DNA of 64,000 nucleotides from Archivesica marissinica (taxonomy: Eukaryota > Mollusca > Bivalvia > Venerida > Vesicomyidae), in the NCBI GenBank assembly GCA_014843695.1, contig CM026400.1:11260333-11324332 (forward strand). The letters are read 5' to 3'. The translations under genes and the position numbers were made by a program. Shown in pieces: positions 23,388-64,000 of the stretch. The notes beneath the pieces were generated by a model that saw only the letters and a list, made by a program, of their open reading frames with translations, did not search any database and was not told where the DNA came from. Position 1 is the stretch's first letter, and the number at the start of each line of letters is the position of its first letter.

Positions 23388-23506
23388 TGCCCGATGAGCA
23401 TCTTGTGAACCGGGCGAGCAACGACGAGATATTGCCTCAAGTTCTACTGTGGTTGAAGGACAAAGTGGCTGCCAGTAAACATAAAGTGGAGCCATTGACT
23501 GAACAT
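23388..23506 (+). CDS. IVNS1ABP: IVNS1ABP-like exon 4: BACK domain
   Basis: Acceptor acatttcag/tgc, donor gaacat/gtaagt (phase 0). Residues 195-233. The segment EILPQVLLWLKDKV corresponds to the conserved BACK helix (a V-x-x-W-type motif) of KLHL proteins. Confidence 0.88.
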
Positions 23507-39106: not shown

Positions 39107-39226
39107 ACGATAGTGTTGTACCTGAACTCGGATAAGTTGTTGACAGACTGCCATGACGTGGACGATGAGGTTATTCAGGAGAACGAAGTCGTACAAGACT
39201 ACAAGATTCTCACCAGACGTAAACAG
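39107..39226 (+). CDS. IVNS1ABP: IVNS1ABP-like exon 5: end of BACK and linker
   Basis: Acceptor gatttcag/acg, donor aaacag/gtaaag, exactly 40 codons (residues 234-273). TIVLYLNSDKLL resembles the LYY-x-x-DHKLL segment of IVNS1ABP. The donor is the start of a 40-bp tandem array in intron 5. Confidence 0.85.
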
Positions 39227-39560
39227 GTAAAGATGTAGAGATAGGGTGGAATAAATCTAGTAACAGGTACGAATGTAGAGATAGGGTGGAATAAAGCTAG
39301 TGACCGGTACAGATGTGTAGAGATAGGACGGAATAAAGCTAGTGACAGGTACGGATGTAGAGATAGGGTGGAATAAAACTAGTAACAGGTATGGATGTAG
39401 AGATAGGGTGGAATAAAGCTAGTGACAGGTACGGATGTAGAGATAGGGTGGAATAAAGCTAGTGACAGGTACAGTTGTAGAGATAGGGTGGGATAAAGCT
39501 AGTGACAGGTACGGATGTAGAGATAGGGTGGAATAAAGCTAGTGACAGGTACAGATGTAC
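39227..39560 (+). repeat. 40-bp array beginning at the exon 5 donor, about 8 units
   Basis: Units run from the donor of exon 5 (aaacag/gtaaagatgtag) and repeat as aacag/gtacgaatgtag and similar, each with gagatagggtggaataaa. Only about six exon bases are included, so seeding by the exon is less certain than in introns 8, 9 and 11. Confidence 0.88.
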
Positions 39561-39719
39561 TGGTTAGAGAATGTAGGAATTTGTATACAAACTTGAGAAC
39601 AATCTTCTGCAGCCAAAAAGGGACAACTCTCTTTCCAAAGGGTGCTACCTCAGTCCCAAAGGGGACTTGTCTTATTCCAGGCTTGGGGGACATCTCGTAA
39701 CAGGGGGGAAACATCTTTC

Positions 39720-42262
39720 CATAGAGGTACATATTATTCCATATGGGTACATATTATAGAGGTACATATTATAGAGGTACATATTATTACATAGGGGTAC
39801 ATATTATTCCATAGGGGTACATATTATAGAGGTACATATTATTCCATAGAGGTACATATTATTCCATAGGGGTACATATTATTCCATAGTGGTACATATT
39901 ATTCCATATGGGTACATATTATTCCATAGGGGTACATATTATTCCATAGGGGTACATATTATTCCATAGAGGTACATATTATTCCATAGGGGTACATATT
40001 ATAGAGGTACATATTATTCCATAGAGGTACATATTATTCCATAGGGGTACATATTATTCCATAGGGGTACATATTATTCCATATGGGTACATATTATAGA
40101 GGTACATATTATTACATAGGGGTACATATTATAGAGGTACATATTATTCCATAGAGGTACATATTATTCCATAGGGGTACATATTATTCCATAGGGGTAC
40201 ATATTATTCCATAGAGGTACATATTATTCCATAGGGGTACATATTATTCCATAGAGGTACATATTATTCCATATGGGTACATATTATTCCATAGGGGTAC
40301 ATATTATTCCATAGGGGTACATATTATAGAGGTACATATTATTCCATAGGGGTACATATTATTCCATAGGGGTACATATTATAGAGGTACATATTATTCC
40401 ATAGAGGTACATATTATTCCATAGGGGTACATATTATTCCATAGGGGTACATATTATTCCATAGGGGTACATATTATTCCATATGGGTACATATTATTCC
40501 ATAGGGGTACATATTATTCATAGAGGTACATATTATTCCATATGGGTACATATTATAGAGGTACATATTATAGAGGTACATATTATAGAGGTACATATTA
40601 TTCCATAGAGGTACATATTATTCCATAGGGGTACATATTATTCCATAGGGGTACATATTATTCCATATGGGTACATATTATTCCATAGGGGTACATATTA
40701 TTCCATAGGGGTACATATTATTCCATATGGGTACATATTATTCCATAGGGGTACATATTATTCCATAGGGGTACATATTATTCCATATGGGTACATATTA
40801 TTCCATAGGGGTACATATTATTCCATAGGGGTACATATTATTCCATAGGGGTACATATTATTCCATAGGGGTACATATTATAGAGGTACATATTATAGAG
40901 GTACATATTATTCCATAGGGGTACATATTATTCCATAGGGGTACATATTATTCCATATGGGTACATATTATTCCGTATGGGTACATATTATTCCATATGG
41001 GTACATATTATTCCATAGGGGTACATATTATTCCATGGTACATATTATTCCATAGGGGTACATATTATTCCATAGGGGTACATATTATTCCATGGTACAT
41101 ATTATTCCATAGGGGTACATATTATTCCATAGGGGTACATATTATTCCATAGGGGTACATATTATTCCATATGGGTACATATTATTCCATAGGGGTACAT
41201 ATTATTCCATAGGGGTACATATTATTCCATGGTACATATTATTCCATAGGGGTACATATTATTCCATATGGGTACATATTATTCCATAGGGGTACATATT
41301 ATTCCATAGGGGTACATATTATTCCATAGGGGTACATATTATTCCATAGGGGTACATATTATTCCATATGGGTACATATTATTCCATAGGGGTACATATT
41401 ATTCCATGGTACATATTATTCCATAGGGGTACATATTATTCCATAGGGGTACATATTATTCCGTAGGGGTACATATTATTCCATATGGGTACATATTATT
41501 CCATAGGGGTACATATCATAGGGGTACATATTATTCCATAGGGGTACATATTATTCCATAGGGGTACATATTATTGGGGTACATATTATTCCATAGGGGT
41601 ACATATTATTCCATAGGGGTACATATTAACATATTATTCCATAGGGTACATATTATTCCATAGGGGTACATATTAACATATTATTCCATAGGGGTACATA
41701 TTATTCCATATGGGTACATATTATTTCATAGGGGTACATATTATTCCATAGGGGTACATATTATTCCATAGGGGTACATATTATTCCATAGGGGTACATA
41801 TTATAGGGGTACATATTATAGAGGTACATATTATAGAGGTACATATTATTCCATAGAGGTACATATTATTCCATAGGGGTACATATTATCCATAGGGGTA
41901 CATATTATTCCATGGTACATATTATTCCATAGGAGTATATATTATTCCATAGGGGTACATATTATTCCATAGGGGTACATATTATTCCATGGTACATATT
42001 ATTCCATAGGAGTATATATTATTCCATAGGGGTACATATTATTCCATGGTACATATTATTCCATAGGAGTATATATTATTCCATAGGGGTACATATTATT
42101 CCATAGGAGTATATATTATTCCATAGGGGTACATATTATTCCATAGGGGTACATATTATAAGGTACATATTATTCCATAGGGGTACATATTATTCCATAG
42201 GGGTACATATTATTGGGGTACATATTATTGGGGTACATATTATTTCATAGGGGTACATATCT
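39720..42262 (+). repeat. 20-bp array (attattccataggggtacat), about 2.5 kb
   Basis: Roughly 130 units of 20 bp with a 15-bp short form (attatagaggtacat). It runs to within about 10 bases of the acceptor of exon 6, so the normal polypyrimidine tract is only ctatttcag. Confidence 0.95.
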
Positions 42263-42269
42263 ATTTCAG

Positions 42270-42411
42270 AGTGGGAAAGTTGCCCAGAAGGACCCTGCAT
42301 CGACGTCCCCAGAGACGAGCGGCACTCCAAACTACATGAAGTTTAGTATAGAGCCGTACAGACCGACTCATGAACTGGAGTGGTCCATCGTAGCTTCGTA
42401 TAAAACTAAAG
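42270..42411 (+). CDS. IVNS1ABP: IVNS1ABP-like exon 6: linker
   Basis: Acceptor ctatttcag/agt, donor actaaag/gtacca. Residues 274-320. It is Ser/Thr/Pro-rich (ASTSPETSGTP) and ends with HELEWSIVASYKTK, corresponding to the family-specific EW-x-IVAS motif. This motif is the best evidence for IVNS1ABP rather than another KLHL. The acceptor directly follows a 2.5-kb 20-bp array. Confidence 0.87.
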
Positions 42412-42464
42412 GTACCAGAGGGGTCTCTAGTTCGTTGTTACTTGTTGCTTGGTTAATGCAAATT

Positions 42465-42575
42465 TAAATTTAGTTTGATTGCGAAACAAGTGATAACATT
42501 AGGTTACTAGCTATCAAGGCCTCTTACCTGATGGGCTCCATCGCCATGAAGGAGAGGTAAGAGGCAATGTGGAGT
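42465..42575 (-). mobile_element. SINE family B, truncated, after exon 6
   Basis: gattgcgaaacaagtgataac and ggctccatcgccatgaagga. It begins about 50 bases after the exon 6 donor. Confidence 0.65.
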
Positions 42576-42589
42576 CATATACAGTCAAA

Positions 42590-42770
42590 CCTGTCTTATG
42601 CAGCCAGTCAATGGAATCACAGAATGTGGCTGCTAAGCACAGGTGGCTGCTTGCTGAATCTGGAAACTTGCTGCTTAATACAGTTTGACTGTATAATGGA
42701 GGTGACCACTAACACATGTTTGACTGTATAATGGAGGTGACCACTAACACATGTTTGACTGTATGTTGCC
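42590..42770 (+). repeat. short repeat (ggaggtgaccactaacacat), two units, in an unnamed repeat
   Basis: Contains gtcaaacctg...gtttgactgtat inverted segments at 42585-42690, similar to the start of the 46-bp array unit at 11340 (gtcaaaccggtac). Confidence 0.5.
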
Positions 42771-42811
42771 CATGACACCACGACTGTCAAATCTCTGTCG
42801 CTAACTTTAAT

Positions 42812-42990
42812 TGGCTGTCCAGCGCAGTGGTTATAGCACGCTCGCTTCTCACCAATGCAACAAAGGTTCTATCGTCGGATAGGGTAGTATGTGAGATGGT
42901 ACAGTATGGTAATATATGGTACAGTGGTTGCCAGATCGGACATGTGGGTTTTCTCCGTGGTTCCTTTGAGATTGCACGTAGGTCTGATTA
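42812..42990 (+). mobile_element. SINE family A, truncated by the 36-bp array
   Basis: ggctgtccagcgcagtggtt head, gccagatcggacatgtgggt body; continues into the array at 43000. Confidence 0.72.
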
Positions 42991-42999
42991 TTCCAAGTG

Positions 43000-43860
43000 A
43001 AGAAGTCCTGAATGAGGGACTCCGTGCTAGTCTGGTACTCATCCTGAATGAGAGACTCCGTGCTAGTCTGGTTGTCGTCCTGAATGAGGGACTCCATGCT
43101 AGTCTGGTACTCATCCTGAATGAGAGACTCCGTGCTAGTCTGGTTGTCGTCCTGAATGAGGGACTCCATGCTAGTCTGGTTGTAGTCCTGAATGAGGGAC
43201 TCCATGCTAGTCTGGTTGTCGTCCTGAATGAGGGACTCTGTGCTAGTCTGGTTGTTGTCCTGAATGAGGGACTCTGTGCTAGTCTGGTTGTTGTCCTGAA
43301 TGAGGGACTCTGTGCTAGTCTGGTTGTCGTCCTGAATGAGGGACTCCGTGCTAGTCAGGTTGTTGACCTGAATGAGGGACTCCATGCTAGTCTGGTTGTT
43401 GTCCTGAATGAGGGACATGGTTGTTGTCCTGAATAAGGGACTCCATGCTAGTCTGGTTGTCGTCCTGAATGAGGGACTCCGTGCTAGTCTGGTTGTCGTC
43501 CTGAATGAGCGACTCCGTGCTAGTCTGGTTGTCGTCCTGAATGAGGGACTCCGTGCTAGTCTGGTTGTCGCCCTGAATGAGCGACTCCGTGCTAGTCTGG
43601 TTCTCATTCTGAATGAGGGACTCCGTGCTAGTCTGGTTGTCGTCCTAATTGAGGGACTCTGTGCTAGTCTAGTTGTCCTCCTGAATGAGCAACTCCGTGC
43701 TAGTCTGGTTGTCCTCCTGAATGAGTGACTCCGTGCTAGTCTGGTTGTCCTCCTGAATGAGCGACTCCGTGCTAGTCTGGTTCTCATTCTGAATGAGCTA
43801 CTCCGTGCTAGTCTGGTTGTCGTCCTGAATGAGGGACTCCGTGCTAATCTGGTTCTCATT
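43000..43860 (+). repeat. 36-bp array in intron 6, about 24 units
   Basis: Units contain cctgaatgagggactccgtg and ctagtctggttgtcg. It begins in a truncated SINE and ends about 15 bases before the exon 7 acceptor. Both strands stay open because 36 is a multiple of three; not considered coding. Confidence 0.93.
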
Positions 43861-43884
43861 CTGAATTTCGTGTACTTTTTTCAG

Positions 43885-44032
43885 ATCGCTCGTACATGGT
43901 GATAGCCATGCTGAACAGTAACTTGGTAACGGTATCCGTGCACTACCGGCCCGCGGTGTCGCCGGGAAGTGGTAATGACGACCCGGAGTCGCCGATACAC
44001 ACGAGTAGCAGTGCCAATAACCTGTTTGATAA
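43885..44032 (+). CDS. IVNS1ABP: IVNS1ABP-like exon 7: linker
   Basis: Acceptor cttttttcag/atc, donor tgataa/gtaaga. Residues 322-369 with split codons. It holds a hydrophobic strand (SYMVIAMLNSNLVTVSV) followed by a low-complexity Pro/Ser stretch, the same order as the pre-kelch region of IVNS1ABP. Confidence 0.86.
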
Positions 44033-44039
44033 GTAAGAT

Positions 44040-44890
44040 TCCTGAGAATGCTGTTATACTCTGTCCTACCAATCTGTTATACTCTGTCCTACCAAGCTGT
44101 TATACTCTGCCCTACCAAGCTGTTATACTCTGTCCTACCAATATGTTATACTCTGTCCTACCAAGCTGTTATACTCTGCCCTACCAAGCTGTTATACTCT
44201 GTCCTACCAAGCTGTTATACTCTGCCCTACCAAGCTGTTATACTCTGTCCTACCAATATGTTATACTCTGTCCTACCAAGCTGTTATACTCTGCCCTACC
44301 AAGCTGTTATACTCTGTCCTACCAAGCTGTTATACTCTGCCCTACCAAGCTGTTATACTCTGTCCTACCAAGCTGTTATACTCTGCCCTACCAAGCTGTT
44401 ATACTCTGTCCTACCAAGCTGTTATACTCTGCCCTACCAAGCTGTTATACTCTGTCCTACCAATATGTTATACTCTGTCCTACCAATATGTTATACTCTG
44501 TCCTACCAATATGTTATACTCTGTCCTACCAATATGTTATACTCTGTCCTACCAATATGTTATACTCTGTCCTACCAATATGTTATACTCTGTCCTACCA
44601 AGCTGTTATACTCTGCCCTACCAAGCTGTTATACTCTGCCCTACCAAGCTGTTATACTCTGCCCTACCAAGCTGTTATACTCTGCCCTACCAAGCTGTTA
44701 TACTCTGCCCTACCAAGCTGTTATAACTCTGTCCTACCATATGTTATACTCTGTCCTACCAATCTGTTATACTCTGTCCTACCAATATGTTATACTCTGT
44801 CCTACCAATATGTTATACTATGTCTTACCAATATGTTATACTCTGTCCTACCAATCTGTTATACTCTGTCCTACCAATCCGTCCACCTCA
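44040..44890 (+). repeat. 23-bp array in intron 7 (gctgttatactctgtccta core)
   Basis: About 37 units starting just after the exon 7 donor, alternating between ctgtcctacc and ctgccctacc versions and between aagctg and aatatg junctions. Stop-free in three plus frames by period; not coding. Confidence 0.93.
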
Positions 44891-44924
44891 GTTTTGGATA
44901 TCTAAATCTATTTTAAACAATTGT

Positions 44925-45592
44925 AATATCATCATATACTGGATATAGTGTTTAATATCATCATATACTGGACGTAGTGTTTAATATCATATACTGGATA
45001 TAGTGTTTAATATCATCATATACTGGACATAGTGTTTAATATCATCATATACTGGACATAGTGTTTAATATCATCATATACTGGACATAGTGTTTAATAT
45101 CATCATATACTGGACGTAGTGTTTAATATCATCATATACTGGATGTAGTGTTTAATATCATCATATACTGGACATAGTGTTTAATATCATCATATACTGG
45201 ACGTAGTGTTTAATATCATCATATACTGGACATAGTGTTTAATATCATCATATACTGGATGTAGTGTTTAATATCATCATATACTGGATGTAGTGTTTAA
45301 TATCATCATATACTGGACATAGTGTTTAATATCATCATATACTGGACATAGTGTTTAATATCATCATATACTGGACGTAGTGTTTAATATCGTCATATAC
45401 TGGACATAGTGTTTAATATCATCATATACTGGATGTAGTGTTTAATATCATCATATACTGGACATAGTGTTTAATATCATCATATACTGGACATAGTGTT
45501 TAATATCATCATATACTGGACGTAGTGTTTAATATCGTCATATACTGGACATAGTGTTTAATATCATCATATACTGGACATAGTGTTTAATC
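44925..45592 (+). repeat. 29-bp array (catatactggacatagtgtt core)
   Basis: About 23 units in intron 7, with single-base variants gacata/gacgta/gatgta. Confidence 0.93.
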
Positions 45593-45839
45593 GTATTTTA
45601 TTGCAAATCAATAGTAAATATGTCATACCCAAAAAGATACAATACATAGCATAAAAAACGTAGCAACGGTAAATAAACGTAAAACGCACAAATGTCTACC
45701 TGTCCCAATCACACTTCTTGATAGTTTGTTATGCTGCAGAAATATGGATTTAGCTCTGCATGCTGGGTAAAATAAAGGCTATATATAGTTCAAATAATTG
45801 TAGCAGATGGCAATTCATTTAATTAGTTATAATTGAGAA

Positions 45840-46100
45840 CTCTGGAATTATGTCATGGAATGTCATTAGAATTGTGTCATGGAATTTCATTAGAATTGTG
45901 TCATGGAATTGCATTAGAATTGTGTCATGGAATTGCATTAGAATTGTGTCATGGAATTGCATTACAATTGTGTCATGGAATTTCATTAGAATTGTGTCAT
46001 GGAATTGCATTAGAATTGTGTCATGGAATTGCATTAGAATTGTGTCATGGAATTGCATTAGAATTGTGTCGTGGAATTGCATTAGAATTGTGTCATAACA
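45840..46100 (+). repeat. 24-bp array (tgtcatggaattgcattaga core)
   Basis: About 11 units in intron 7, ending 100 bases before exon 8. The remaining 100 bases look ordinary. Confidence 0.93.
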
Positions 46101-46204
46101 CGATTGTAAAGAAATTGTATGACATATTTGACTGTTATTATCACTGCTAGCGTGCAGAGAGACCATTGAAGTTTATATACATGTAATATTTCTGTTCTAT
46201 TTAG

Positions 46205-46293
46205 GATTGGTGACATTGAGCCATTGAAAGGAATGATGACTAACCGCTGTGCATTTGGTCTGAGGGCGCTTGACGGGAAGCTCTTTGCTTGTG
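46205..46293 (+). CDS. IVNS1ABP: IVNS1ABP-like exon 8: first strands of kelch repeat 1
   Basis: Acceptor ctatttag/gat, donor cttgtg/gtatgt. Residues 371-399 plus one base. RCAFGLRALDGKLFAC joins GGYDRGEC of exon 9 to make kelch blade 1. The last 48 bases and the donor are repeated 11 more times in the following intron, always in the same frame. Confidence 0.88.
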
Positions 46294-46930
46294 GTATGTA
46301 TCGCTGTACATTTGGTCTGAGGGCGCTTGACGGGAAGCTCTTTGCTTGTGGTATGTATCGCTGTACATTTGGTCTGAGGGCGCTTGACGGGAAGCTCTTT
46401 GCTTGTGGTATGTATCGCTGTACATTTGGTCTGAGGGCGCTTGACGGGAAGTTCTTTGCTTGTGGTATGTATCGCTGTACATTTGGTCTGAGGGCGCTTG
46501 ACGGGAAGCTCTTTGCTTGTGGTATGTATCGCTGTACATTTGGTCTGAGGGCGCTTGACGGGAAGCTCTTTGCTTGTCGTATGTATCGCTGTACATTTGG
46601 TCTGAGGGCGCTTGACGGGAAGCTCTTTGCTTGTAGTATCTATCGCTGTACATTTGGTCTGAGGGCGCTTGACGGGAAGCTCTTTGCTTGTGGTATGTAT
46701 CGCTGTACATTTGGTCTGAGGGCGCTTGATGGGAAGCTCTTTGCTTGTAGTATCTATCACTGTACATTTGGTCTGAGGGCGCTTGACGGGAAGCTCTTTG
46801 CTTGTGGTATGTATCGCTGTACATTTGGTCTGAGGGCGCTTGACGGAAAGTTCTTTGCTTGTGGTATGTACCGCTGTACATTTGGTCTGAGGGCGCTTGA
46901 TGGGAAGTTCTTTGCTTGTGGTATGTTCTA
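46294..46930 (+). repeat. 57-bp array seeded by the end of exon 8 and its donor, 11 units
   Basis: Starting at the donor of exon 8, 57-bp units repeat the exon's last 48 bases and the donor. GT is kept at the same position in every unit, from 46294 to 46921 in steps of 57 (12 donors). No stop occurs in the exon frame; each unit would read GMYRCTFGLRALDGKLFAC. Protein homology supports use of the first donor. Confidence 0.95.
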
Positions 46931-47227
46931 ACCCCTGTGCATTAGCAGGACGATATGGGCTAACTAGTCTCTTTACGGACCCAGACTTCGTCCCACTATT
47001 TCCAAAAAAACACACCATAGCTCTGGACGAGAAAGCATTTGCTTATTGCAGGTACAAGCATGTAAAGAAATAAGGGAAAGTGACTTCAGGAGAAAACACG
47101 GGCAAAGGTTTTATTGCAATGCTAAATGCTGTTCAAAATGGCAACTAGTTTGCCTCTATGTGTGTGCGTGTTGATGTCGTGTCTGCGCAAGAATTGATTA
47201 CCTACACATTAATAGAAACATTAAATT

Positions 47228-47492
47228 GTCAGCCTCCATGGTCGAGTGGTTACGGTCGCTGACTTGTATACCACTGTAACCTACCATCACTGATGGTCAC
47301 GGGTTCGAGCCCCGCTCAGACCGTGTCTCATTTATATGAAAAAGTTGGCAGTTTCTTACGGAGGTTGCTGCACCCAAGTACTGGTTAACCGCTGGAGCCT
47401 GCCCAGGAAAGGTGTTGTTGTTAGGTAAACTGCCCGCTGGCGATATAGCCCAAAATGGTGCTGATGCAGGCGTAAAACCCGAAATATAACAT
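47228..47492 (+). mobile_element. SINE family C in intron 8
   Basis: ccatggtcgagtggttacgg head, gggttcgagccccgctcaga, ggcagtttcttacggaggtt, end atgcaggcgtaaaacccgaa. Nearly identical to 22592-22855. Confidence 0.86.
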
Positions 47493-47639
47493 AACATAAG
47501 AAACATTAAATTGAAATTTGTGTACATCGAGTCTCCATCTCTAATCAAGTGAGATAGTGAATCAAAGATGGCCGCTTCCGGTATACTATTGTGAACTTTA
47601 ACATGAATTGTGTTGATGGTTTTCATTGAATGACTTCAG

Positions 47640-47885
47640 GTGGCTATGACAGGGGAGAGTGTTTGCAATCTTCGGAAGTGTACGATTTTGAAACAAACCA
47701 GTGGTCTGCTGTAGGAGACATGAAGTCTGCTAGGGGGCGCTTCAGCATTGCATCGTATGAGGGGAAGATATACGCATGTGGGGGATCCAATGGGAACCAG
47801 GACATGAGGACGGTGGAATGTTACACGCCCAGTGAGGACAAGTGGCAGATTGTGGCTGAGGCTCCCAGAGGGAAAGCTTCTCCAG
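47640..47885 (+). CDS. IVNS1ABP: IVNS1ABP-like exon 9: kelch repeats 1-2 and start of 3
   Basis: Acceptor gacttcag/gtg, donor ctccag/gtaagt. Residues 401-481. It contains the double-glycine GGYDRGEC, EVYDFETNQW (blade 1) and GKIYACGGSNG with ECYTPSEDKW (blade 2), the GG...Y...W pattern of kelch blades. The last about 50 bases are homologous to the 50-bp array units in the next intron. Confidence 0.93.
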
Positions 47886-48560
47886 GTAAGTGGCTATGGA
47901 TTGTGGCCGAGGCTCACAGGGGGGGGGGGATCTCCATCTGGTAAGTGGATAAGGATTGTGGCCGAGGCTCCCAAGGGGAAAGCTTCTCTGGGTAGGTGGC
48001 TAAGGATTGTGCCCGAGACTCCCAGGAGGAAAGCTTCTCTGGATAAGTGGCTAAGGATTGTGCCCGAGACTCCCAGGGGGAAAGCTTCTCTGGATAGGTG
48101 GCTAAGTATTGTGCCCGAGACTCCCAGGAGGAAAGCTTCTCTGGGTAGGTGGCTAAGGATTGTCCCGAGACTCCCAGGGGGAAAGCTTCTCTGGGTAAGT
48201 GGCTAAGGATTGTGATCGAGGTGCCCAAGGGGAAAGTTTCTCCAGGTAAGTTACTGAGGGATTGTGACCGAGGCTCCCAGGGGGAAGTTTCTTCATGTAA
48301 GTTACTGAGGGATTGTGACCGAGGCTCCCAGGGGGAAGTTTCTTCATGTAAGTTACTGAGGGATTGTGACCGAGGCTCCCAGGGGGAAGTTTCTTCATTT
48401 AAGTTACTGAGGGATTGTGACCGAGGCTCCGAGGGGGAAGTTTCTTCATGTAAGTTACTGAGGGATTGTGACCGAGGCTCTTAGGGGGAAGTTTCTTCAT
48501 GTAAGTTACTGAGGGATTGTGACCGAAGCTCCCAATGGAAAGTTTCTCTGGTAAAGTTGC
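47886..48560 (+). repeat. 50-bp array seeded by the end of exon 9 and its donor, about 14 units
   Basis: Units resemble the last 50 bases of exon 9 (about 47836-47885) and carry gtaagtggct or later gtaagttactg. Near units keep gaaagcttctctg like the exon; distal units drift to gaagtttcttcat. The gradient suggests growth away from the exon. Confidence 0.9.
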
Positions 48561-48689
48561 TGAGGAAATGTGACCGATGCTCCCATCGTGGAAATCAATC
48601 TTACGAAATAACATCGGGACAATTGGTTGTGACCTGTAAGTAAGCGATTGTCCGATAAAATTCCTGTTACCATCTGTCCTTCTAGCTGT

Positions 48690-49760
48690 ATCTCTGCATC
48701 CGTATCTCTGCACCCGTATCTCTGCATCCATGACTATCTCTGCACCCAAGACTGTATCTCTGCACCCAAGACTGTATCTCTGCATCCATGACTGTATCTC
48801 TGCACCCAAGACTGTATCTCTGCATCCATGACTGTATCTCTGCACCCAAGACTGTATCTCTGCACCCAAGACTGTATCTCTGCATCCATGACTGTATCTC
48901 TGCACCCAATACTGTATCTCTGCACCCAAGACTGTATCTCTGCACCCAAGACTGTATCTCTGCACCCAAGACTGTATCTCTGCATCCATGACTGTATCTC
49001 TGCACCCAAGACTGTATCTCTGCACCCAAGACTGTATATCTGCACCCAAGACTGTATATCTGCACCCTAGACTGTATCTCTGCACCCTAGACTGTATCTC
49101 TGCACCCAAGACTGTATCTCTGCACCCAAGACTGTATCTCTGCACCCAAGACTGTATCTCTGCACCCAAGACTGTATCTCTGCACCCAAGACTGTATATC
49201 TGCACCCTAGATTGTATATCTGCACCCAAGACTGTATCTTTGCACCCAAGACTGTATCTCTGCACCCTAGACTGTATCTCTGCACCCAAGACTGTATCTC
49301 TGCACCCTAGACTGTATCTCTGCACCCAAGACTGTATCTCTGCACCCTAGACTGTATATCTGCACCCACGACTGTATCTCTGCACCCAAGACTGTATCTC
49401 TGCACCCAAGACTGTATCTCTGCACCCAAGACTGTATATCTGCACCCAAGACTGTATATCTGCACCCAAGACTGTATATCTGCACCCGTATCTCTGCACC
49501 CAAGACTGTATCTCTGCACCCTAGACTATATCTGCACCCAAGACTGAATCTCTGCACCCACGACTGTATCTCTGCACCCACGACTGTATCTCTGCACCCA
49601 AGACTGTATCTCTGCACCCAAGACTGTATCTCTGCACCCAAGACTGTATCTCTGCACCCAAGACTGTATCTCTGCACCCAAGACTGTATCTCTGCACCCA
49701 AGACTGTATCTCTGCACCCAAGACTGTACCTCTGCACCCAAGACTGAAACTCTGCACCTT
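48690..49760 (+). repeat. 20-bp array (tctctgcacccaagactgta), about 53 units
   Basis: Second array of intron 9, with variants catccatgac and cctagac. It follows directly on a short unique stretch (48561-48690) after the exon-seeded array. Confidence 0.95.
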
Positions 49761-49769
49761 AGAGTGAGA

Positions 49770-52430
49770 TTATTAGGCACATAGTCATGTATTGGTTGTT
49801 ACACATAGTCGGGTATTGGTTGTTACACATAGTCAGGTATTGGTTGTGTTACACATAGTCATGTATTGGTTGTGTTACACATAGTCATGTATTGGTTGTG
49901 TTACACATAGTCAGGTATTGGTTGTGTTACACATAGTCGGGTATTGGTTGTTACACATAGTCAGGTATTGGTTGTGTTACACATAGTCAGGTATTGGTTG
50001 TGTTACACATAGTCATGTATTGGTTGTGTTACACATAGTCAGGTATTGGTTGTGTTACACATAGTCAGGTATTGGTTGTGTTACACATAGTCGGGTATTG
50101 GTTGTTACACATAGTCAGGTATTGGTTGTGTTACACATAGTCAGGTATTGGTTGTGTTACACATAGTCATGTATTGGTTGTGTTACACATAGTCAGGTAT
50201 TGGTTGTGTTACACATAGTCGGGTATTGGTTGTGTTACACATAGTCAGGTATTGGTTTGTGTTACACAGTCGGGTATTGGTTGTGTTACACATAGTCGGG
50301 TATTGGTTGTTACACATAGTCAGGTATTGGTTGTGTTACACATAGTCATGTATTGGTTGTGTTACACATAGTCATGTATTGGTTGTGTTACACATAGTCA
50401 GGTATTGGTTGTGTTACACATAGTCAGGTATTGGTTGTGTTACACATAGTCGGGTATTGGTTGTTGCACATAGTCATGTATTGGTTGTTACACATAGTCG
50501 GGTATTGGTTGTTACACATAGTCAGGTATTGGTTGTGTTACACATAGTCGGGTATTGGTTGTGTTACACATAGTCGGGTATTGGTTGTGTTACACATAGT
50601 CATGTATTGGTTGTGTTACACATAGTCAGGTATTGGTTGTGTTACACATAGTCATGTATTGGTTGTGTTACACATAGTCGGGTATTGGTTGTGTTACACA
50701 TGATCGGGTATTGGTTGTGTTACACATAGTCAGGTAATGGTTGTGTTACACATAGTCGGGTATTGGTTGTTACACATAGTCAGGTATTGGTTGTTACACA
50801 TAGTCAGGTATTGGTTGTTACACATAGTCATGTATTGGTTGTTACACATAGTCGGGTATTGGTTGTGTTACACATAGTCAGGTATTGGTTGTGTTACACA
50901 TAGTCGGGTATTGGTTGTTACACATAGTCAGGTATTGGTTGTGTTACACATAGTCATGTATTGGTTGTTACACATAGTCAGGTATTGGTTGTGTTACACA
51001 TAGTCATGTAATGGTTGTGTTACACATAGTCATGTATTGGTTGTTACACATAGTCGGGTATTGGTTGTTACACATAGTCGGGTATTGGTTGTTACACATA
51101 GTCGGGTATTGGTTGTTACACATAGTCGGGTATTGGTTGTTACACATAGTCGGGTATTGGTTGTTACACATAGTCGGGTATTGGTTGTTACACATAGTCG
51201 GGTATTGGTTGTTACACATAGTCTGTATTGGTTGTTACACATAGTCGGGTATTGGTTGTTACACATAGTCGGGTATTGGTTGTTACACATAGTCGGGTAT
51301 TGGTTGTTACACATAGTCGGGTATTGGTTGTTACACATAGTCGGGTATTGGTTGTTACACATAGTCGGGTATTGGTTGTTACACATAGTCAGGTATTGGT
51401 TGTTACACATAGTCAGGTATTGGTTGTTACACATAGTCAGGTATTGGTTGTTACACATAGTCAGGTATTGGTTGTTACACATAGTCAGGTATTGGTTGTT
51501 ACACATAGTCATGTATTGGTTGTTACACATAGTCGGGTATTGGTTGTGTTACACATAGTCAGGTATTGGTTGTGTTACACATAGTCAGGTATTGGTTGTT
51601 ACACATAGTCAGGTATTGGTTGTGTTACACATAGTCATGTATTGGTTGTTACACATAGTCGGGTATTGGTTGTGTTACACATAGTCGGGTATTGGTTGTT
51701 ACACACAGTCAGGTATTGGTTGTGTTACACATAGTCAGGTATTGGTTGTGTTACACATAGTCAGGTATTGGTTGTGTTACACATAGTCAGGTATTGGTTG
51801 TGTTACACATAGTCGGGTATTGGTTGTGTTACACATAGTCATGTATTGGTTGTGTTACACATAGTCATGTATTGGTTGTGTTGTACATAGTCATGTATTG
51901 GTTGTGTTGTACATAGTCATGTATTGGTTGCGTTACATAGTCGGGTATTGGTTGTGTTACACATAGTCGGGTATTGGTTGTGTTACACATAGTCGGGTAT
52001 TGGTTGTGTTACACATAGTCGGGTATTGGTTGTGTTACACATAGTCATGTATTGGTTGTTACACATAAGTCAGGTATTGGTTGTGTTACACATAGTCGGG
52101 TATTGGTTGTGTTACACATAGTCGGGTATTGGTTGTGTTACACATAGTTGGGTATTGGTTGTGTTACACATAGTCGGGTATTGGTTGTGTTACACATAGT
52201 CAGGTATTGGTTGTGTTACACATAGTCAGGTATTGATTGTGTTACACATAGTCAGGTATTGGTTGTGTTACACATAGTCAGGTATTGGTTGTGTTACACA
52301 TAGTCAGGTATTGGTTGTGTTACACATAGTCAGGTATTGGTTGTGTTACACATAGTCGGGTATTGGTTGTGTTACACATAGTCAGGTATTGGTTGTGTTA
52401 CATAGTCGGGTATTGGTTGCCCACACACTG
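49770..52430 (+). repeat. 26-/23-bp array (ttggttgtgttacacatagt core), about 2.7 kb
   Basis: Third array of intron 9, two length forms (ttggttgtgttac and ttggttgttac). It runs up to the acceptor of exon 10, whose tract (tattttgttgttacag) resembles the unit (tattggttgttacaca). Confidence 0.95.
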
Positions 52431-52446
52431 TATTTTGTTGTTACAG

Positions 52447-52572
52447 GTTTAGCCGTGCTGCAGGGAAAGCTCTACGTGCTGGGAGGTTGTATCGGTCAAT
52501 CCACCGTATCCACATGCGAGATGCTTGACCTAGAAACCAACCAATGGGAAGGAATTGCACCAATGCGCTTAC
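52447..52572 (+). CDS. IVNS1ABP: IVNS1ABP-like exon 10: kelch repeat 3
   Basis: Acceptor ttgttacag/gtt, donor gcttac/gtaagc. Residues 483-523. LAVLQGKLYVLGGCIG and CEMLDLETNQWEGIAPM make blade 3. The first codon is completed by the G at the end of exon 9. Confidence 0.9.
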
Positions 52573-52589
52573 GTAAGCTTTATTGTTAG

Positions 52590-53410
52590 CATATAGAGTG
52601 TGATACGGCATATAGCATGTGATACGGCATATCGAGTGTGATACGGCATATAGAGCGTGATACAGCATATAGAGCGTGATACAGCATATAGAGTGTGATA
52701 CAGCATATAGAGTGTGATACAGCATATAGAGTGTGATACAGCATATAGCATGTGATACGGCATATCGAGTGTGATACAGCATATAGAGCGTGATACAGTA
52801 TATAGAGCGTGATACAGCATATAGAGTGTGATACAGCATATAGCATGTGATACGGCATATCGAGTGTGATACAGCATATAGAGCGTGATACAGCATATAG
52901 AGTGTGATACAGCATATACAGTGTGATACAGTATATAGAGTGTGATACAGCATATACAGTTTGATACAGCATATAGAGCGTGATACAGCATATAGAGTGT
53001 GATACAGCATATACAGTGTGATACAGCATATAGAGTGTGATACAGCATATACAGTGTGATACAGCATATAGAGTGTGATACAGCATATACAGTGTGATAC
53101 AGCATATAGAGTGTGATACAGCATATAGCATGTGATACGGCATATCGAGTGTGATACAGTATATAGAGCGTGATACAGCATATAGGGTGTGATACAGCAT
53201 ATAGAGTGTGATACAGTATTTGTGATACAGCATATAGAGTGTGATACGGCATATAGGGTGTGATACAGCATTATAGAGTGTGATACAGCATATAGAGTGT
53301 GATACGGCATATAGAGTGAATTACAGCATATAGAGTGTGATACGGCATATAGCATGTGATACAGCATATAGAGTGTGATACAGCATTATAGAGTGTGATA
53401 CGGCATATAG
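52590..53410 (+). repeat. 19-bp array in intron 10 (atagagtgtgatacagcat)
   Basis: About 43 units starting 15 bases after the exon 10 donor. Not related to the exon end. Reads open on the minus strand in all frames by chance of composition. Confidence 0.94.
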
Positions 53411-53534
53411 AGTGATATGGGAGTGATTGTCACCTGCTCATGATGACTAATGTTTGTCTCGCCCATTTTAGTAAGGGCGTCTTCAACAATTGCTTATTTG
53501 CAACTTAAAAACGATCAAATATAATGCTGTGATA

Positions 53535-53725
53535 ACTTGCCTAAGAGTGGCCTAGGTGCGAATCCCACTGGGATGTCCAATTCTTTCAAAACGAGGAAGC
53601 CATCGAAGCTTGCGGAAGGTTGATGGTTCTGCCTGGGTGTCTGTCTGTGCCTGTAGCCCGGAGAGGCGATATATGTAGTTTGTGCGACCCTCAAAACAAG
53701 ATTAGAATGAAAGACTTGTCTTGTA
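53535..53725 (+). mobile_element. SINE family F, head-truncated, in intron 10
   Basis: gcgaatcccactgggatgtc, gcttgcggaaggttgatggt, and atgaaagacttgtcttgtag at the end. Confidence 0.6.
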
Positions 53726-53856
53726 GAAATAAAGATTCAAGTCTGGAGCGTGTTTGGAAGAATGAATTTTCAGTGTGATACTTTAATATCAGCTGACTGG
53801 CGAAGAATGTCGCGGCAATATTATGACGTTGCATAACACCGACATATCCTTTTCAG

Positions 53857-54030
53857 AACGTTTCCAGGTTGCGGTAACGGTATTTAGAAACAAGGTATAC
53901 GCAATTGGAGGAACAAGCGGATGGAAATGTTTGAACGAGGTGGAGGTGTATGATCCGCAGACGGACGAGTGGTCCCTCCTGCCGCCCCTAAACATATGTA
54001 GGAGAGGGGCTGGTGTTGAGGTTTATGCAG
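53857..54030 (+). CDS. IVNS1ABP: IVNS1ABP-like exon 11: kelch repeat 4 and start of 5
   Basis: Acceptor ccttttcag/aac, donor atgcag/gtatgt. Residues 525-581. VYAIGGTSGWKCLNEVEVYD and EWSLLPPLN form blade 4; ICRRGAGVEVYAG opens blade 5 (the RRGAGV motif is conserved in the family). The last 37 bases (53994-54030) are one exact-length unit of the array that fills the next intron. Confidence 0.92.
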
Positions 54031-55535
54031 GTATGTAGGAGGGGCTTGTGTTGAGGTTTATATAGGTGTGTAGTAGAGGGGCTGGTGTTGAGGTTTATAA
54101 AGGTATGTTGAGGTTTATAAAGGTATGTTGAGGTTTATACAGGTATGTAGGACAGGGGCTGGTGTTGAGGTTTATACAGATGTGTAGGAGAGGGGCTGGT
54201 GTTGAGGTTTATACAGATGTGTAGGAGAGGGGCTGGTGTTGAGGTTTATACAGGTATGTAGGACAGGGGCTGGTGTTGAGGTTTATACAGGTGTGTAGGA
54301 CAGGGGCTGGTGTTGAGGTTTATAAAGGTATGTAGGACAGGGGCTGGTGTTGAGGTTTATAAAGGTATGTAGGACAGGGGCTGGTGTTGAGGTTTATACA
54401 GGTGTGTAGGACAGGGCTGGTGTTGAGGTTTATAAAGGTATGTAGGACAGGGGCTGGTGTTGAGGTTTATACAGGTGTGTAGGACAAGGGCTGGTGTTGA
54501 GGTTTATACAGGTATGTAGGAGAGGGGCTGGTGTACAGGTGTGTAGGAGAGGGGCTGGTGTTGGAGGTGTGTAGGAGAGGGGCTGGTGTTGGAGGTGTGT
54601 AGGAGAGGGGCTGGTATTGAGGTTTATAAAGATATGTAGGAGAGGGGCTGGTGTTGAGGTTTATAAAGGTATGTAGGAGAGGGTCTGGTGTTGAGGTTTA
54701 TACAGGTCAGTAGCTGAGGGGCTGGTGTTGAGGTTTATAAAGGTATGTAGGAAAGGGGCTGGTGTTGAGGTTATACAGGTCAGTAGGAGAGGGGCTGGTG
54801 TTGATTTTTATACAGGTCAGTAGGAGAGGGGCTGGTGTTGAGGTTTATACAGGTCAGTAGGAGAGGGGCTGGTGTTGAGGTTTATAAAGGTATGTAGGAG
54901 AAGGGCTGGTGTTGAGGTTTGTACAGGTGTGTAGGAGAGGGGTTGGTGTTGATTTTTATACAGGTCAGTAGAAGAGGGGCTGGTGTTGAGGTTTATACAG
55001 GTCAGTAGGAGATGGGCTGGTGTTGAGGTTTATAAAGGTATGTAGGACAGGGGCTGGTGTTGAGGTTTATAAAGGTATGTAGGACAGAGGCTGGTGTTGA
55101 GGTTTATACAGGTGTGTAGGACAGGGCTGGTGTTGAGGTTTATAAAGGTATGTAGGACAGGGGCTGGTGTTGAGGTTTATACAGGTGTGTAGGACAAGGG
55201 CTGGTGTTGAGGTTTATAAAGGTATGTAGGAGAGGGGCTGGTGTTGAGGTTTATACAGGTATGTAGGAGAGGGGCTGGTGTACAGGTGTGTAGGAGAGGG
55301 GCTGGTGTTGGAGGTGTGTAGGAGAGGGGCTGGTGTTGGAGGTGTGTAGGAGAAGGGCTGGTGTTGAGGTTTATAAAGGTCAGTAGGAGAGGGGCTGGTG
55401 TTGAGGTTTATAAAGGTCCGTAGGAGAGGGTCTGGTGTTGAGGTTTATACAGGTCAGTAGGAGAAGGGCTGTTGTTGAGGTTTATAAAGGTATGAAGGAG
55501 AGCGGCTGGTGTTGAGGTTGTGGACAGATTCATGT
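54031..55535 (+). repeat. 37-bp array seeded by the end of exon 11 and its donor, about 38 units
   Basis: Units of 37 bp (some shortened) repeat the exon 11 end at 53994-54030, including gaggggctggtgttgagg. The unit junction varies: acag/gtatgt, acag/gtgtgt, acag/gtcagt. Because 37 is not a multiple of three and gtatgtag brings a stop, use of later donors would break the frame. Confidence 0.94.
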
Positions 55536-55860
55536 TGTTGGCAGCTGTGCGTGCATGTAGTTTCATGTCATTGGCAGCTGTGCGTGCATGTAGTTTCATG
55601 TCATTGGCAGCTGTGCGTGCATGTAGTTTTATGTCATTGGCAGCTGTGCATGCATGTAGTTTCATGTCATTGGCAGCTGTGTGTGCTTGTAGTTTCATGT
55701 CATTGGCAGCTGTGCATGCATGTAGTTTCATGTCATTGGCAGCTGTGTGTGCATGTAGTTTCATGTCATTGGCAGCTGTGTGTGCATGTAGTTTCATGTC
55801 ATTGGCAGCTGTGTGTGCATGTAGTTTCATGTTGTTGGCAGCTGTGCGTGCATGTAGTAA
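55536..55860 (+). repeat. 33-bp array (ttggcagctgtgcgtgcatg core)
   Basis: About ten units in intron 11 after the exon-seeded array. The unit length is a multiple of three, so both strands are open; not coding. Confidence 0.92.
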
Positions 55861-55904
55861 ACTAGGAATATGTTGTTTTTGCAGTGAAATAATATTTGTA
55901 TTTA

Positions 55905-55992
55905 ACTTATAATATTTCTATGGTCCAAATGTAACTTATAATATTTCTATGGTCCAAATGTAACTTGTAATATTTCTATGGTCCAAATGTAA
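55905..55992 (+). repeat. 31-bp array, three units
   Basis: Three copies of a unit with taatatttctatggtccaaa just before exon 12. Confidence 0.85.
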
Positions 55993-56063
55993 AGCATGCA
56001 AATATTCATGTTGTCCATTGCCACACTTAAAATGATTTTTAAAATGATTTTGTGAATTTCCAG

Positions 56064-57004
56064 GCAAGATCTGTGTCATCGGCGGTAATGATGGCACATC
56101 GGCATTAAGTTCCACAGAAATCTACGACTCCGAGACCCACACCTGGTCCCTGGGTCCTACACTGAACTCCCTCAGGGCCAACTGCGGTGTTGCTGTCCTT
56201 AACGATAGACTCTTTGCTGTCGGCGGATTCAACGGAAAGAAATTCCTCAATACGGTGGAATATTTGAACTTGAGCAGAACGGAATACTGGAGCAGTAACG
56301 TGCCCAGTGATGAAAATGGTGTAAATGGTGTAAGTGATGATATCATCAAAGAAAATGGTGGCATTTGCACGAAAAATGATGTCACAATTGACCATGATGG
56401 CAGCTCTACGAATATGAAAACAAATGATGTCATCCTTTTAAATGGTGACATCAAAGAGAATGGCGACAGCTGCGCAAAAATTGATGGTAGCGTCAAAGAG
56501 AATGGTGACAGCTGCGCAAAAATTGATGGTAGCGTCAAAGAGAATGGTGACAGCTGCGCAAAAATTGATGGTAGCGTCAAAGAGAATGGTGACAGCTGCG
56601 CAAAAATTGATGGTAGCGTCAAAGAGAATGGTGACAGCTGCGCAAAAATTGATGGTAGCGTCAAAGAGAATGGTGACAGCTGCGCAAAAATTGATGGTAG
56701 CGTCAAAGAGAATGGTGACAGCTGCGCAAAAATTGATGGTAGCGTCAAAGAGAATGGTGACAGCTGCGCAAAAATTGATGGTAGCGTCAAAGAGAATGGT
56801 GACAGCTGCGCAAAAATTGATGGTAGCGTCAAAGAGAATGGTGACAGCTGCGCAAAAATTGATGGTGGTTGTAAAAAGAAGTTGGAAACAGTGATCTCAG
56901 GAGGTAGTAAGTGTACGGCTGCCGTCTCTCAGGCCAGGTCAGAGCCATCCTGTAACGGGCATGTGAAACAGGATGCCAAATCTGGCGGAAACTTTGACTC
57001 ATAA
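56064..57004 (+). CDS. IVNS1ABP: IVNS1ABP-like exon 12: kelch repeats 5-6 and repeat-bearing C-terminal tail
   Basis: Acceptor atttccag/gca; stop TAA at 57002-57004. Residues 583-894. The first 80 residues complete blade 5 (CVIGGNDGTSALSSTEIYD) and blade 6 (FAVGGFNGKKFLNTVEY). The human protein ends about here. A hydrophilic tail of about 232 residues follows: an older diverged unit (IIKENGGICTKND), ten 14-residue repeats (mostly SVKENGDSCAKIDG), then a Cys/Lys/Ser-rich end. The tail is predicted disordered from composition, with one Cys per repeat. I know no function for it. The tail frame is continuous with the kelch frame, so it is coding unless an unseen splice removes it. Confidence 0.9.
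56447..56866 (+). repeat. coding 42-bp minisatellite, 10 units
   Basis: Ten 42-bp units in frame inside exon 12. The first unit begins with Asp-Ile instead of Ser-Val and has one silent-looking difference; the other nine look identical at protein level. A diverged ancestor lies upstream at about 56341-56385. Such uniformity suggests recent expansion or homogenisation. Confidence 0.95.
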
Positions 57005-57065
57005 CCCAATGTTTACATCCGATCATTTTGTGTATTTTGTTGATCTTTTGTTTGATCGTCTGCTC

Positions 57066-59220
57066 GAGGGCTTAGTCGTGCGATCACCCGGTTTACACTA
57101 GGCATGAGCTCATCCGGTTTACACCAGGTAAGCTTAGTCGTGCGATCACCCGGTTTACACTAGGCATGAGCTCATCCGGTTTACACCAGGTAAGCTTAGT
57201 CGTGCGATCACCCGGTTTACACTAGGCATGAGCTCATCCGGTTTACACCAGGTAAGCTTAGTCGTGCGATCACCCGGTTTACACTAGGCATGAGCTCATC
57301 CGGTTTACACCAGGTAAGCTTAGTCGTGCGATCACCCGGTTTACACTAGGCATGAGCTCATCCGGTTTACACCAGGTAAGCTTAGTCGTGCGATCACCCG
57401 GTTTACACTAGGCATGAGCTCATCCGGTTTAAACCAGGTAAGCTTAGGCATGCACTCACCCGGTTTACACTAGGCATGAGCTCATCCGGTTTACACCAGG
57501 TAAGCTTAGGCATGCACTCACCCGGTTTACACTAGGCATGAGCTCATCCGGTTTACACCAGGTAAGCTTAGTCGTGCGATCACCCGGTTTACACTAGGCA
57601 TGAGCTCATCCGGTTTACACCAGGTAAGCTTAGTCGTGCGATCACCCGGTTTACACTAGGCATGAGCTCATCCGGTTTACACCAGGTAAGCTTAGTCGTG
57701 CGATCACCCGGTTTACACTAGGCATGAGCTCATCCGGTTTACACCAGGTAAGCTTAGTCGTGCGATCACCCGGTTTACACTAGGCATGAGCTCATCCGGT
57801 TTACACCAGGTAAGCTTAGGCATGCACTCACCCGGTTTACACTAGGCATGAGCTCATCCGGTTTACACCAGGTAAGCTTAGTCGTGCGATCACCCGGTTT
57901 ACACTAGGCATGAGCTCATCCGGTTTACACCAGGTAAGCTTAGGCATGCACTCACCCGGTTTACACTAGGCATGAGCTCATCCGGTTTACACCAGGTAAG
58001 CTTAGTCATGCGATCACCCGGTTTACACTAGGCATGAGCTCATCCGGTTTACACCAGGTAAGCTTAGTCGTGCGATCACCCGGTTTACACTAGGCATGAG
58101 CTCATCCGGTTTACACCAGGTAAGCTTAGTCGTGCGATCACCCGGTTTACACTAGGCATGAGCTCATCCGGTTTACACCAGGTAAACTTAGTCGTGCGAT
58201 CACCCGGTTTACACTAGGCATGAGCTCATCCGGTTTACACCAGGTAAGCTTAGGCATGCACTCACCCGGTTTACACTAGGCATGAGCTCATCCGGTTTAC
58301 ACCCGGTAAGCTTAGTCGTGCGATCACCCGGTTTACACTAGGCATGAGCTCATCCGGTTTACACCAGGTAAGCTTAGTCGTGCGATCACCCGGTTTACAC
58401 TAGGCATGAGCTCATCCGGTTTACACCAGGTAAGCTTAGGCATGCACTCACCCGGTTTACACTAGGCATGAGCTCATCCGGTTTACACCAGGTAAGCTTA
58501 GTCGTGCGATCACCCGGTTTACACTAGGCATGAGCTCATCCGGTTTACACCAGGTAAGCTTAGTCGTGCGATCACCCGGTTTACACTAGGCATGAGCTCA
58601 TCCGGTTTACACCAGGTAAGCTTAGTCATGCGATCACCCGGTTTACACTAGGCATGAGCTCATCCGGTTTACACCAGGTAAGCTTAGTCGTGCGATCACC
58701 GGTTTACACTAGGCATGAGCTCATCCGGTTTACACCAGGTAAGCTTAGTCGTGCGATCACCCGGTTTACACTAGGCATGAGCTCATCCGGTTTACACCAG
58801 GTAAGCTTAGTCGTGCGATCACCCGGTTTACACTAGGCATGAGCTCATCCGGTTTACACCAGGTAAGCTTAGGCATGCACTCACCCGGTTTACACTAGGC
58901 ATGAGCTCATCCGGTTTACACCAGGTAAGCTTAGTCGTGCGATCACCCGGTTTACACTAGGCATGAGCTCATCCGGTTTACACCAGGTAAGCTTAGTCGT
59001 GCGATCACCCGGTTTACACTAGGCATGAGCTCATCCGGTTTACACCAGGTAAGCTTAGGCATGCACTCACCCGGTTTACACCAGGTAAGCTTAGTCGTGC
59101 GATCACCCGGTTTACACTAGGCATGAGCTCATCCGGTTTACACCAGGTATGAGCTCATCCGGTTTAAACCAGGTAAACTCAGGCATGCACTCACCCGGTT
59201 TAAACACGGTATGCATGCTG
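57066..59220 (+). repeat. 62-bp array carrying a 5' splice-site-like motif, about 34 units
   Basis: Each unit is a dimer of two related halves that both contain ccggtttacac. Almost every unit ends with caccaggtaagctt, a very good match to the CAG/GTAAGY donor consensus. Units are nearly identical, with two main variants (gtcgtgcgatca and ggcatgcactca). It starts about 60 bases after the stop codon. Confidence 0.93.
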
Positions 59221-59437
59221 TATAAACCAGGTAAGCTTAGGCGTGCTTATGCCTAGTTTAAACAGAGTGAGTGCATGCCTATGAGCTCATCCGCATATTG
59301 TGCGGCAATTCAGGATCGTAATTGAGTGTTGAAAGCCAAGGAGGTGCCACAATTTATTTTTTTACATGCCACATGTATTTTAGCCACTGTAAATAATGAA
59401 TCTCGTTTTTCCTGTGTAACAGAATCTGGGCGTAGAT

Positions 59438-59443
59438 AATAAA
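59438..59443 (+). promoter_or_regulatory. poly(A) signal AATAAA
   Basis: Canonical hexamer within gataataaagcg, downstream of the 3'UTR array, followed by GT/T-containing sequence. It is the first AATAAA seen after the stop codon and so the likely end of the IVNS1ABP-like transcript. Confidence 0.5.
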
Positions 59444-63228: not shown

Positions 63229-64000
63229 CCCATTCAACACCAAGTAACTGACATGGACTGGTGCACGATATTTAACCATTCAACACCAAGTATCTGCCAT
63301 GGACTGGTGCACGATATTTAACCCATTCAACACCAAGTAACTGACATGGACTGGTGCACGATATTTAACCATTCAACACCAAGTAACTGACATGGACTGG
63401 TGCACGATATTTAACCATTCAACACCAAGTAACTGACATGGACTGGTGCACGATATTTAACCATTCAACACCAAGTAACTGACATGGACTGGTGCACGAT
63501 ATTTAACCATTCAACACCAAGTAACTGACATGGACTGGTGCACGATATTTAACCATTCAACACCAAGTAACTGACATGGACTGGTGCATGATATTTAACC
63601 ATTCAACACCAAGTAACTGACATGGACTGGTGCATGATATTTAACCATTCAACACCAAGTAACTGACATGGACTGGTGCACGATATTTAACCATTCAACA
63701 CCAAGTAACTGACATGGACTGGTGCATGATATTTAACCATTCAACACCAAGTAACTGACATGGACTGGTGCATGATATTTAACCCATTCAACACCAAGTA
63801 ACTGACATGGACTGGTGCATGATATTTAACCATTCAACACCAAGTAACTGACATGGACTGGTGCATGATATTTAACCATTCAACACCAAGTAACTGACAT
63901 GGACTGGTGCACGATATTTAACCATTCAACACCAAGTAACTGACATGGACTGGTGCACGATATTTAACCATTCAACACCAAGTAACTTACATGGACTGGT
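63229..64000 (+). repeat. 46-bp array made of MITE ends, about 17 units, runs off the window
   Basis: Unit is the reverse complement of the array in 17614-17888: cattcaacaccaagtaactg, acatggactggtgcacgata, tttaac. Each unit junction contains TTAA next to the MITE terminus. The right edge is outside the window. Confidence 0.93.

Follow-up and report, generated by a model that had tools for sequence, protein, structure and literature searches.

The stretch of Archivesica marissinica DNA considered here (assembly GCA_014843695.1, contig CM026400.1, forward-strand positions 11,260,333 to 11,324,332), hereafter the window, is 64,000 nucleotides (nt) long and carries one complete IVNS1ABP-like protein-coding gene on the + strand. 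Several of the introns of this gene open with tandem arrays in which the 3′ end of the upstream exon is repeated along with its 5′ splice site (donor). Twelve coding exons are joined between positions 8306 and 57004 into an intact frame of 895 codons without an internal stop, and all 11 introns have GT-AG ends. In the predicted protein, Pfam, run on the first 667 amino acids (aa), finds a BTB domain, a BACK domain and Kelch sequences (Kelch_1, six stretches). The nearest named relative is ‘influenza virus NS1A-binding protein homolog B-like isoform X2’ of Mercenaria mercenaria, with 79% identity over 77% of the query, and the next named relative is from Mya arenaria (58%). The combination of BTB, BACK and six kelch repeats, with best named relatives that carry the family name, places the protein in the IVNS1ABP (NS1-BP) family, which is the identity proposed in an earlier sequence-only reading of this DNA. 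Sequence matches in the PDB are kelch propellers and include the human NS1A-binding protein entries 5yy8 and 6n3h.

The donors of introns 5, 8, 9 and 11 (four of the 11) sit within tandem arrays that start in the preceding exon (Table 1). The sequence-only reading had described such arrays at the start of introns 8, 9 and 11, and a weak case in intron 5; the description and the intron numbering both hold. The repeat unit clearly spans the exon-intron boundary in introns 8, 9 and 11, and shares just 4 nt with the exon in intron 5. When the last 45 nt of each exon are searched for in its own intron, the scores are 43, 29 and 36 for introns 8, 9 and 11 (shuffle maximum 15 or less). No clear copy is found in the other eight introns (1–7 and 10), where intron 7 scores 13, equal to its shuffle maximum of 13. 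Identity to the exon end is 93–98% for the 12 copies of intron 8, 81–88% for those of intron 9, and 88–100% for the 44 full or partial copies of intron 11. The intron 5 array has eight copies, and later copies are 87–93% identical to the first. The intron 11 unit is nearly all exonic, and the joint between copies, which consists of CAG/G and the exon's own TATGT, reads as a good donor. The GT dinucleotide is kept in 8/8, 11/11, 10/13 and 36/39 of the downstream copies in introns 5, 8, 9 and 11, respectively. With a further array in the 3′ untranslated region (3′UTR), the donor positions total 110 (9 + 12 + 14 + 40 + 35 for introns 5, 8, 9 and 11 and the 3′UTR, the figure of 40 referring to copies that fit a pattern), in line with the ‘some hundred’ first estimated. 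The arrays of introns 7 (at 44050) and 10 (at 52588) begin 17 and 15 nt past the first intron base and look as if they extend up to the donor; their units have no resemblance to the donor region.

Table 1. Positions of the IVNS1ABP-like gene and of associated arrays, numbered from the first base of the window
Feature	Positions	Strand	Remarks
IVNS1ABP-like coding exons 1–6	8306-8631, 16178-16302, 22269-22397, 23388-23506, 39107-39226, 42270-42411	+	frame, GT-AG junctions
IVNS1ABP-like coding exons 7–12	43885-44032, 46205-46293, 47640-47885, 52447-52572, 53857-54030, 56064-57004	+	frame, GT-AG junctions
Intron 5 donor array	39223..39559	+	40-bp unit = 4 nt of exon 5 + 36 nt of intron; 9 donor positions
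Intron 8 donor array	46245..46926	+	57-bp unit = 49 nt of exon 8 + 8 nt of intron; 12 donors
Remnant of longer unit past intron 8 array	46928..46943	+	16 nt, 15 matching exon 8
Intron 9 donor array	47848..48585	+	51-bp unit = 38 nt of exon 9 + 13 nt of intron; 14 copies, 11 with GT intact
Intron 11 donor array	53995..55519	+	37-bp unit = 36 nt of exon 11 + 1 nt
3′UTR donor array	57070..59262	+	62-bp unit with CAG/GTAAGC, ∼35 donors
Possible acceptor of 3′UTR intron	59398..59443	+	AG at 59421-59422; exon would begin at 59423
Intron 5 acceptor-side array	39717..42265	+	20-bp unit, ∼2.5 kb, ends 4 nt before last intron base
Intron 9 acceptor-side array (third of the intron)	49778..52419	+	26-bp unit

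Minisatellites are abundant throughout the window. Manual merging of the 127 rows reported by Tandem Repeats Finder leaves 56 arrays, which occupy 34,653 of the 64,000 bases (54%); arrays fill 55% of the introns of the IVNS1ABP-like gene. The placement of the 41 intronic arrays was therefore compared with chance. The P values apply within the window and are post hoc, because the window was chosen for looking odd. Arrays overlap 4/11 donors and 0/11 acceptors. Random placement of the 41 arrays, with at most 60 exon nt overwritten, gives a mean of 0.61 overlapped donors, and the probability of four or more is 0.003; that of at least four donors plus no acceptor is 0.002. With arrays held inside introns and the free sequence randomly broken, 6/11 introns have a first gap that does not exceed 20 nt (P = 0.0003, against a mean of 1.6 introns under the null). 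By the same procedure nothing unusual is seen on the acceptor side, where the last gap stays within 30 nt in 4/11 introns (P = 0.1). These values support an over-representation of boundary-spanning tandem duplications in the gene, within the window and beyond its already very high repeat content, which the sequence-only reading had suspected. The four donor arrays are all in introns 5–11 (4/7), and none is in introns 1–4.

At the other end of the introns, no exon start is copied in its own intron (0/11). Five comparisons of intron ends with arrays were made, and two were positive. The last 26 nt of intron 5, with the polypyrimidine tract included, align to the 20-bp unit of the adjacent array (score 18, 0/500 shuffles), and the acceptor-side unit of intron 9 weakly resembles that intron's own 3′ end (score 10, 3/500 shuffles). 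Both of these arrays copy intron and not exon sequence. Matches of the terminal 30 nt inside introns 6, 7 and 10 are ascribed to array bases among those 30 nt and were set aside.

Translation of the exon-matching parts of the units gives kelch sequence that also occurs in relatives. The RRGAG motif of the exon 11 end is found in 7/7 relatives compared, and RCAFGL of the exon 8 end in the three closest ones; the exon 9 end is less conserved. Since the units of introns 8, 9 and 11 are copies of coding sequence known from relatives, the exon is, on this comparison, the source of the arrays and not the reverse. The intron 8 array also bears traces of its growth. The remnant past its last unit matches exon 8 sequence that lies further upstream, and keeps the exon's base at one place where all 11 internal copies differ. 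A base shared by the internal copies, unlike exon and remnant, points to later growth of the middle of the array, and it seems that an older, longer duplication was followed by expansion of the 57-bp core.

Which donor is used was approached through the protein relatives. Sixty-four of the 120 relatives listed, from 189 found, were compared at the exon junctions, and all 64 span the junctions examined. At junctions 8, 9 and 11 all of them lack insertions of at least 5 aa, and from this we infer that splicing from the first donor gives the usual product. That donor is transcribed first and defines the shortest exon, and co-transcriptional splicing and exon definition should favor a donor with these properties.

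We consider it likely that the arrays are mirage-type minisatellites, i.e. boundary duplications of the kind described in amphioxus, which are tolerated by splicing and are not a new regulatory device. A short local tandem duplication would arise across the 3′ end of an exon, in a region where minisatellites form very frequently, and the array would then enlarge via slippage or unequal exchange. When a duplication spans a donor, the first copy, exon end plus donor, would remain intact and the extra donors would all lie downstream within the intron. Splicing would continue from the first donor and the array would be removed with the intron, so that a donor-side duplication should be close to neutral. 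A duplication that spans an acceptor would instead leave the real acceptor preceded by exon copies and decoy acceptors, and these would more often be used. Harm from such upstream decoys would explain why four donor-side and no acceptor-side cases with exon sequence are present. Near-neutrality and the reason for the asymmetry are both deduced from these presumed properties of splicing.

The sequence-only reading had raised the question of whether the donor copies are favored, with U1 binding sites masking cryptic poly(A) sites. Such an effect would be telescripting-like, and bound U1 might also aid exon definition. Counts of donor-like sites are in its favor. With a 5′ splice-site matrix, 97 sense and 16 antisense sites reach the median authentic donor in 39107-59262, against 66 and 92 in 1-39106. 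These counts are inflated because the arrays are clonal, and the surplus on the sense strand can be traced to a few independent arrays. Of 53 consensus units scored, 41 lie in 8306-59450 (these differ from the 41 intronic arrays of the placement test), and a donor score of at least 2.6 is reached by 6/41 in the sense and 1/41 in the antisense orientation. The six comprise the four boundary arrays, which have their donors by descent, the 3′UTR array, whose donor is stronger than in shuffled units (p = 0.003), and the array at 42676 (p = 0.05). Below p = 0.05 against shuffled units there are 4/41 sense and 0/41 antisense units, and three of the four boundary units are not unusual (p = 0.09, 0.15 and 0.10), intron 9 being the exception (p = 0.007). 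By U1 pairing energy, 0/71 intronic copies in the four introns exceed their own authentic donor; by the matrix, 5/8 copies in intron 5 and 8/39 in intron 11 are stronger. Among the intronic copies, a cyclic test that excludes the authentic copy, and whose ungapped columns are poor for intron 9, finds no difference in variability between the donor columns and the remaining columns of the unit (Fisher P = 0.27, four arrays). In the 3′UTR array, too, conservation of the donor columns does not exceed that of the other columns. Looser tests, in which windows at least as variable as the donor columns numbered 0/22, 2/38, 0/27 and 0/12 in introns 5, 8, 9 and 11, had pointed to extra donor variability, a claim dropped because of the stricter result. 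As to masking, AATAAA occurs 10 times in sense and three times in antisense in 39107-57004, and 32 and 39 times in 8632-39106. The sense signal is not specially common in the donor-rich part (39107-57004), and introns 1–4, which are richer in it (32 versus 10), have neither a donor array nor a sense unit that scores 2.6. We read the copies as drifting from a strong ancestral donor, with selection for or against them undetectable; usefulness of the U1 sites and masking of poly(A) sites are not well supported, and a benefit through U1 appears very unlikely. It is hardly credible that the arrays are errors of assembly. Arrays of 1–2.6 kb are hard to assemble, but the copies differ from each other in a graded manner (in introns 8 and 9 they match the exon end at 81–98%), the reading frame across 12 exons is intact, and a collapse should shorten arrays and not invent them.

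Two of the arrays lend themselves to more specific functional proposals. All 12 donors of intron 8 are in frame, their extensions are multiples of three spaced 57 nt apart, and no stop interrupts the frame before a TAA just past the last unit; slips to downstream donors would therefore add 19-aa pieces without truncation. Read-through in the exon's frame runs into stops in introns 5, 9 and 11. The intron 8 array could then be a functional donor ladder that yields mRNAs with 0 to 11 extra 19-aa partial copies of a kelch blade, and its downstream donors equal the authentic one in 8/11 cases by matrix and in 6/11 by U1 energy, none being stronger. We think this very unlikely. Not one of the 64 relatives has an insertion at this junction, the insert would repeat merely part of a kelch blade, an open frame is automatic when an open 57-nt unit is copied, and only two of the four unit lengths (57 and 51, not 40 and 37) are multiples of three. 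The second proposal concerns the 3′UTR, where 35 matches to C[AC]GGTAA[GA]C are found in 57070-59300, 32 of them exactly CAGGTAAGC, close to the ‘about 34’ counted in the sequence-only reading. This donor has a matrix score of 7.63, above 10/11 authentic donors; 32 of 37 scored sites in the array are cag/GTAAGC, and the first donor is 123 nt past the stop codon. An unseen 3′UTR intron would make this a fifth array of the same kind. Directly past the array is an AG that ranks 12th of the 3699 AGs in the window and above 9/11 authentic acceptors, by a home-made acceptor score that was devised for this check and is uncalibrated, and an AATAAA poly(A) signal (59438-59443) follows 15 nt past the candidate acceptor. 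The terminal exon would be just some 40 nt long, no exon boundary is known there and the unit has no recognizable exon origin; such an intron is possible but rather doubtful. Were it present, splicing would leave an exon junction at least 123 nt past the stop codon and could expose the mRNA to nonsense-mediated decay.

Mirage-type duplication tolerated by splicing remains the preferred explanation, and several observations weigh against it. The 4:0 ratio of donor to acceptor cases is small (two-sided binomial 0.125), and amphioxus has acceptor-side mirages with exon sequence, according to passages of PMC3087553. Junction 5, the weakest case, has insertions in 3/64 relatives (44, 7 and 5 aa), and the relatives from which first-donor use is deduced possibly lack the arrays. 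The looser tests had hinted at extra variability in the donor columns, which the stricter test did not bear out. Finally, the 3′UTR array copies no coding-exon boundary seen in the gene, and this requires either chance or an unseen 3′UTR intron.

Other repeats are present in and around the gene. Exon 12 has a coding minisatellite at 56451-56866, with ∼10 near-identical, in-frame copies of a 42-bp unit (14 aa). This repeat was not seen in the C-terminal sequences of four relatives inspected (P0001-P0004), and the Mya relative (P0004) has a different short repeat in its C-terminal region. The 46-bp units of the arrays at 17614-17892 and 63230-64000 look, by eye, mutually reverse-complementary, and apparently represent the same minisatellite family in two places and opposite orientations. 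ARAGORN calls a tRNA-Ala (anticodon cgc) at 9335-9408, within intron 1. This may be a tRNA-derived short interspersed element, because an Rfam search of the window returned nothing at gathering scores.

A broader proposal can be made for this clam lineage, and taken as a whole we judge it unlikely: minisatellites would arise with a preference for exon ends and would persist almost exclusively at donors, because downstream decoy donors are harmless and upstream decoy acceptors are not, and this one gene would have five donor ladders, with intron 8 able to yield twelve in-frame isoforms and the 3′UTR able to tune mRNA decay via an intron. Series of near-identical donors that have arisen naturally offer ready test cases for the way in which the spliceosome chooses among equal donors, and the donor/acceptor asymmetry provides a simple genome-wide prediction on the order of splice-site recognition.

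The original paper on amphioxus Adh is reportedly that of Canestro (2002). Tandem repeats across exon-intron boundaries, termed mirage minisatellites, are found in amphioxus Adh3 and in the globin genes BflGb6 and BflGb9 (PMC3087553), as well as in PGBD5 and troponin C (PMC3902484), and passages of the former paper report no interference in regular splicing. The statement in the sequence-only reading that no description of the pattern was known is overtaken by these reports and by one on human ABCA7 (PMC5954066). Likenesses to the clam arrays include unit length, 10–72 bp in Adh3 and 37–57 bp here, and a tandem unit across the boundary; many, not all, units with AG/GT splice signals are the rule for mirages and are found in introns 5, 8, 9 and 11. 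Length polymorphism, somatic cases included, also belongs to the mirage pattern; the clam sequence represents a single haplotype. In amphioxus, the passages describe several genes and both boundary types as affected, and the BflGb6 haplotypes have 6 and 3 copies; in the clam, four donor arrays lie in one gene and copy numbers are higher (8, 12, 14 and ∼44). Mirages have been described in cephalochordates, and the closest relatives of the present gene are those of clams, i.e. bivalve molluscs. The taxon is taken here as the range of the reports and not as part of the definition.

The ABCA7 case is a variable number of tandem repeats in intron 18, with a 25-bp unit, ∼12 to 427 copies and a first GT that is the exon 18 donor; the donor one unit downstream is sometimes used (PMC5954066). 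As in the clam, the array begins at the exon's donor. The human array is single and, according to the passages concerned, its unit opens with the first two bases of the intron, whereas clam introns 8, 9 and 11 copy 36–49 exon nt. Intron gain through tandem genomic duplication of AGGT (PMC3443670) shares with the clam a local tandem duplication that copies AG/GT, but as the process is presented in the relevant passages, the clam differs in that its acceptors are no copy of the duplicated unit, and intron gain is not apparent. It was rejected as an origin here, as exon starts are copied in 0/11 introns and the acceptor of intron 11 ends at 56063, 544 nt past the donor array.

Among the matches listed in the open-access literature, which leaves most subscription papers outside, no mollusc case of boundary-spanning arrays was found. 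Passages of two papers on mollusc gene structure (PMC4732748, PMC7931591) concern interspersed repeats and proto-splice sites and contain no boundary arrays, and those of papers on Caenorhabditis elegans intronic minisatellites (PMC4039745) and bivalve transposons (PMC10294476) have no bearing on the pattern. The kind of pattern is already known; its presence in a mollusc and the number of cases that a single gene holds are apparently what is new. After lancelets and a human gene, a mollusc gene with four cases can be added to the range of boundary-spanning minisatellites, suggesting that repeat-prone animal genomes may often contain such arrays.

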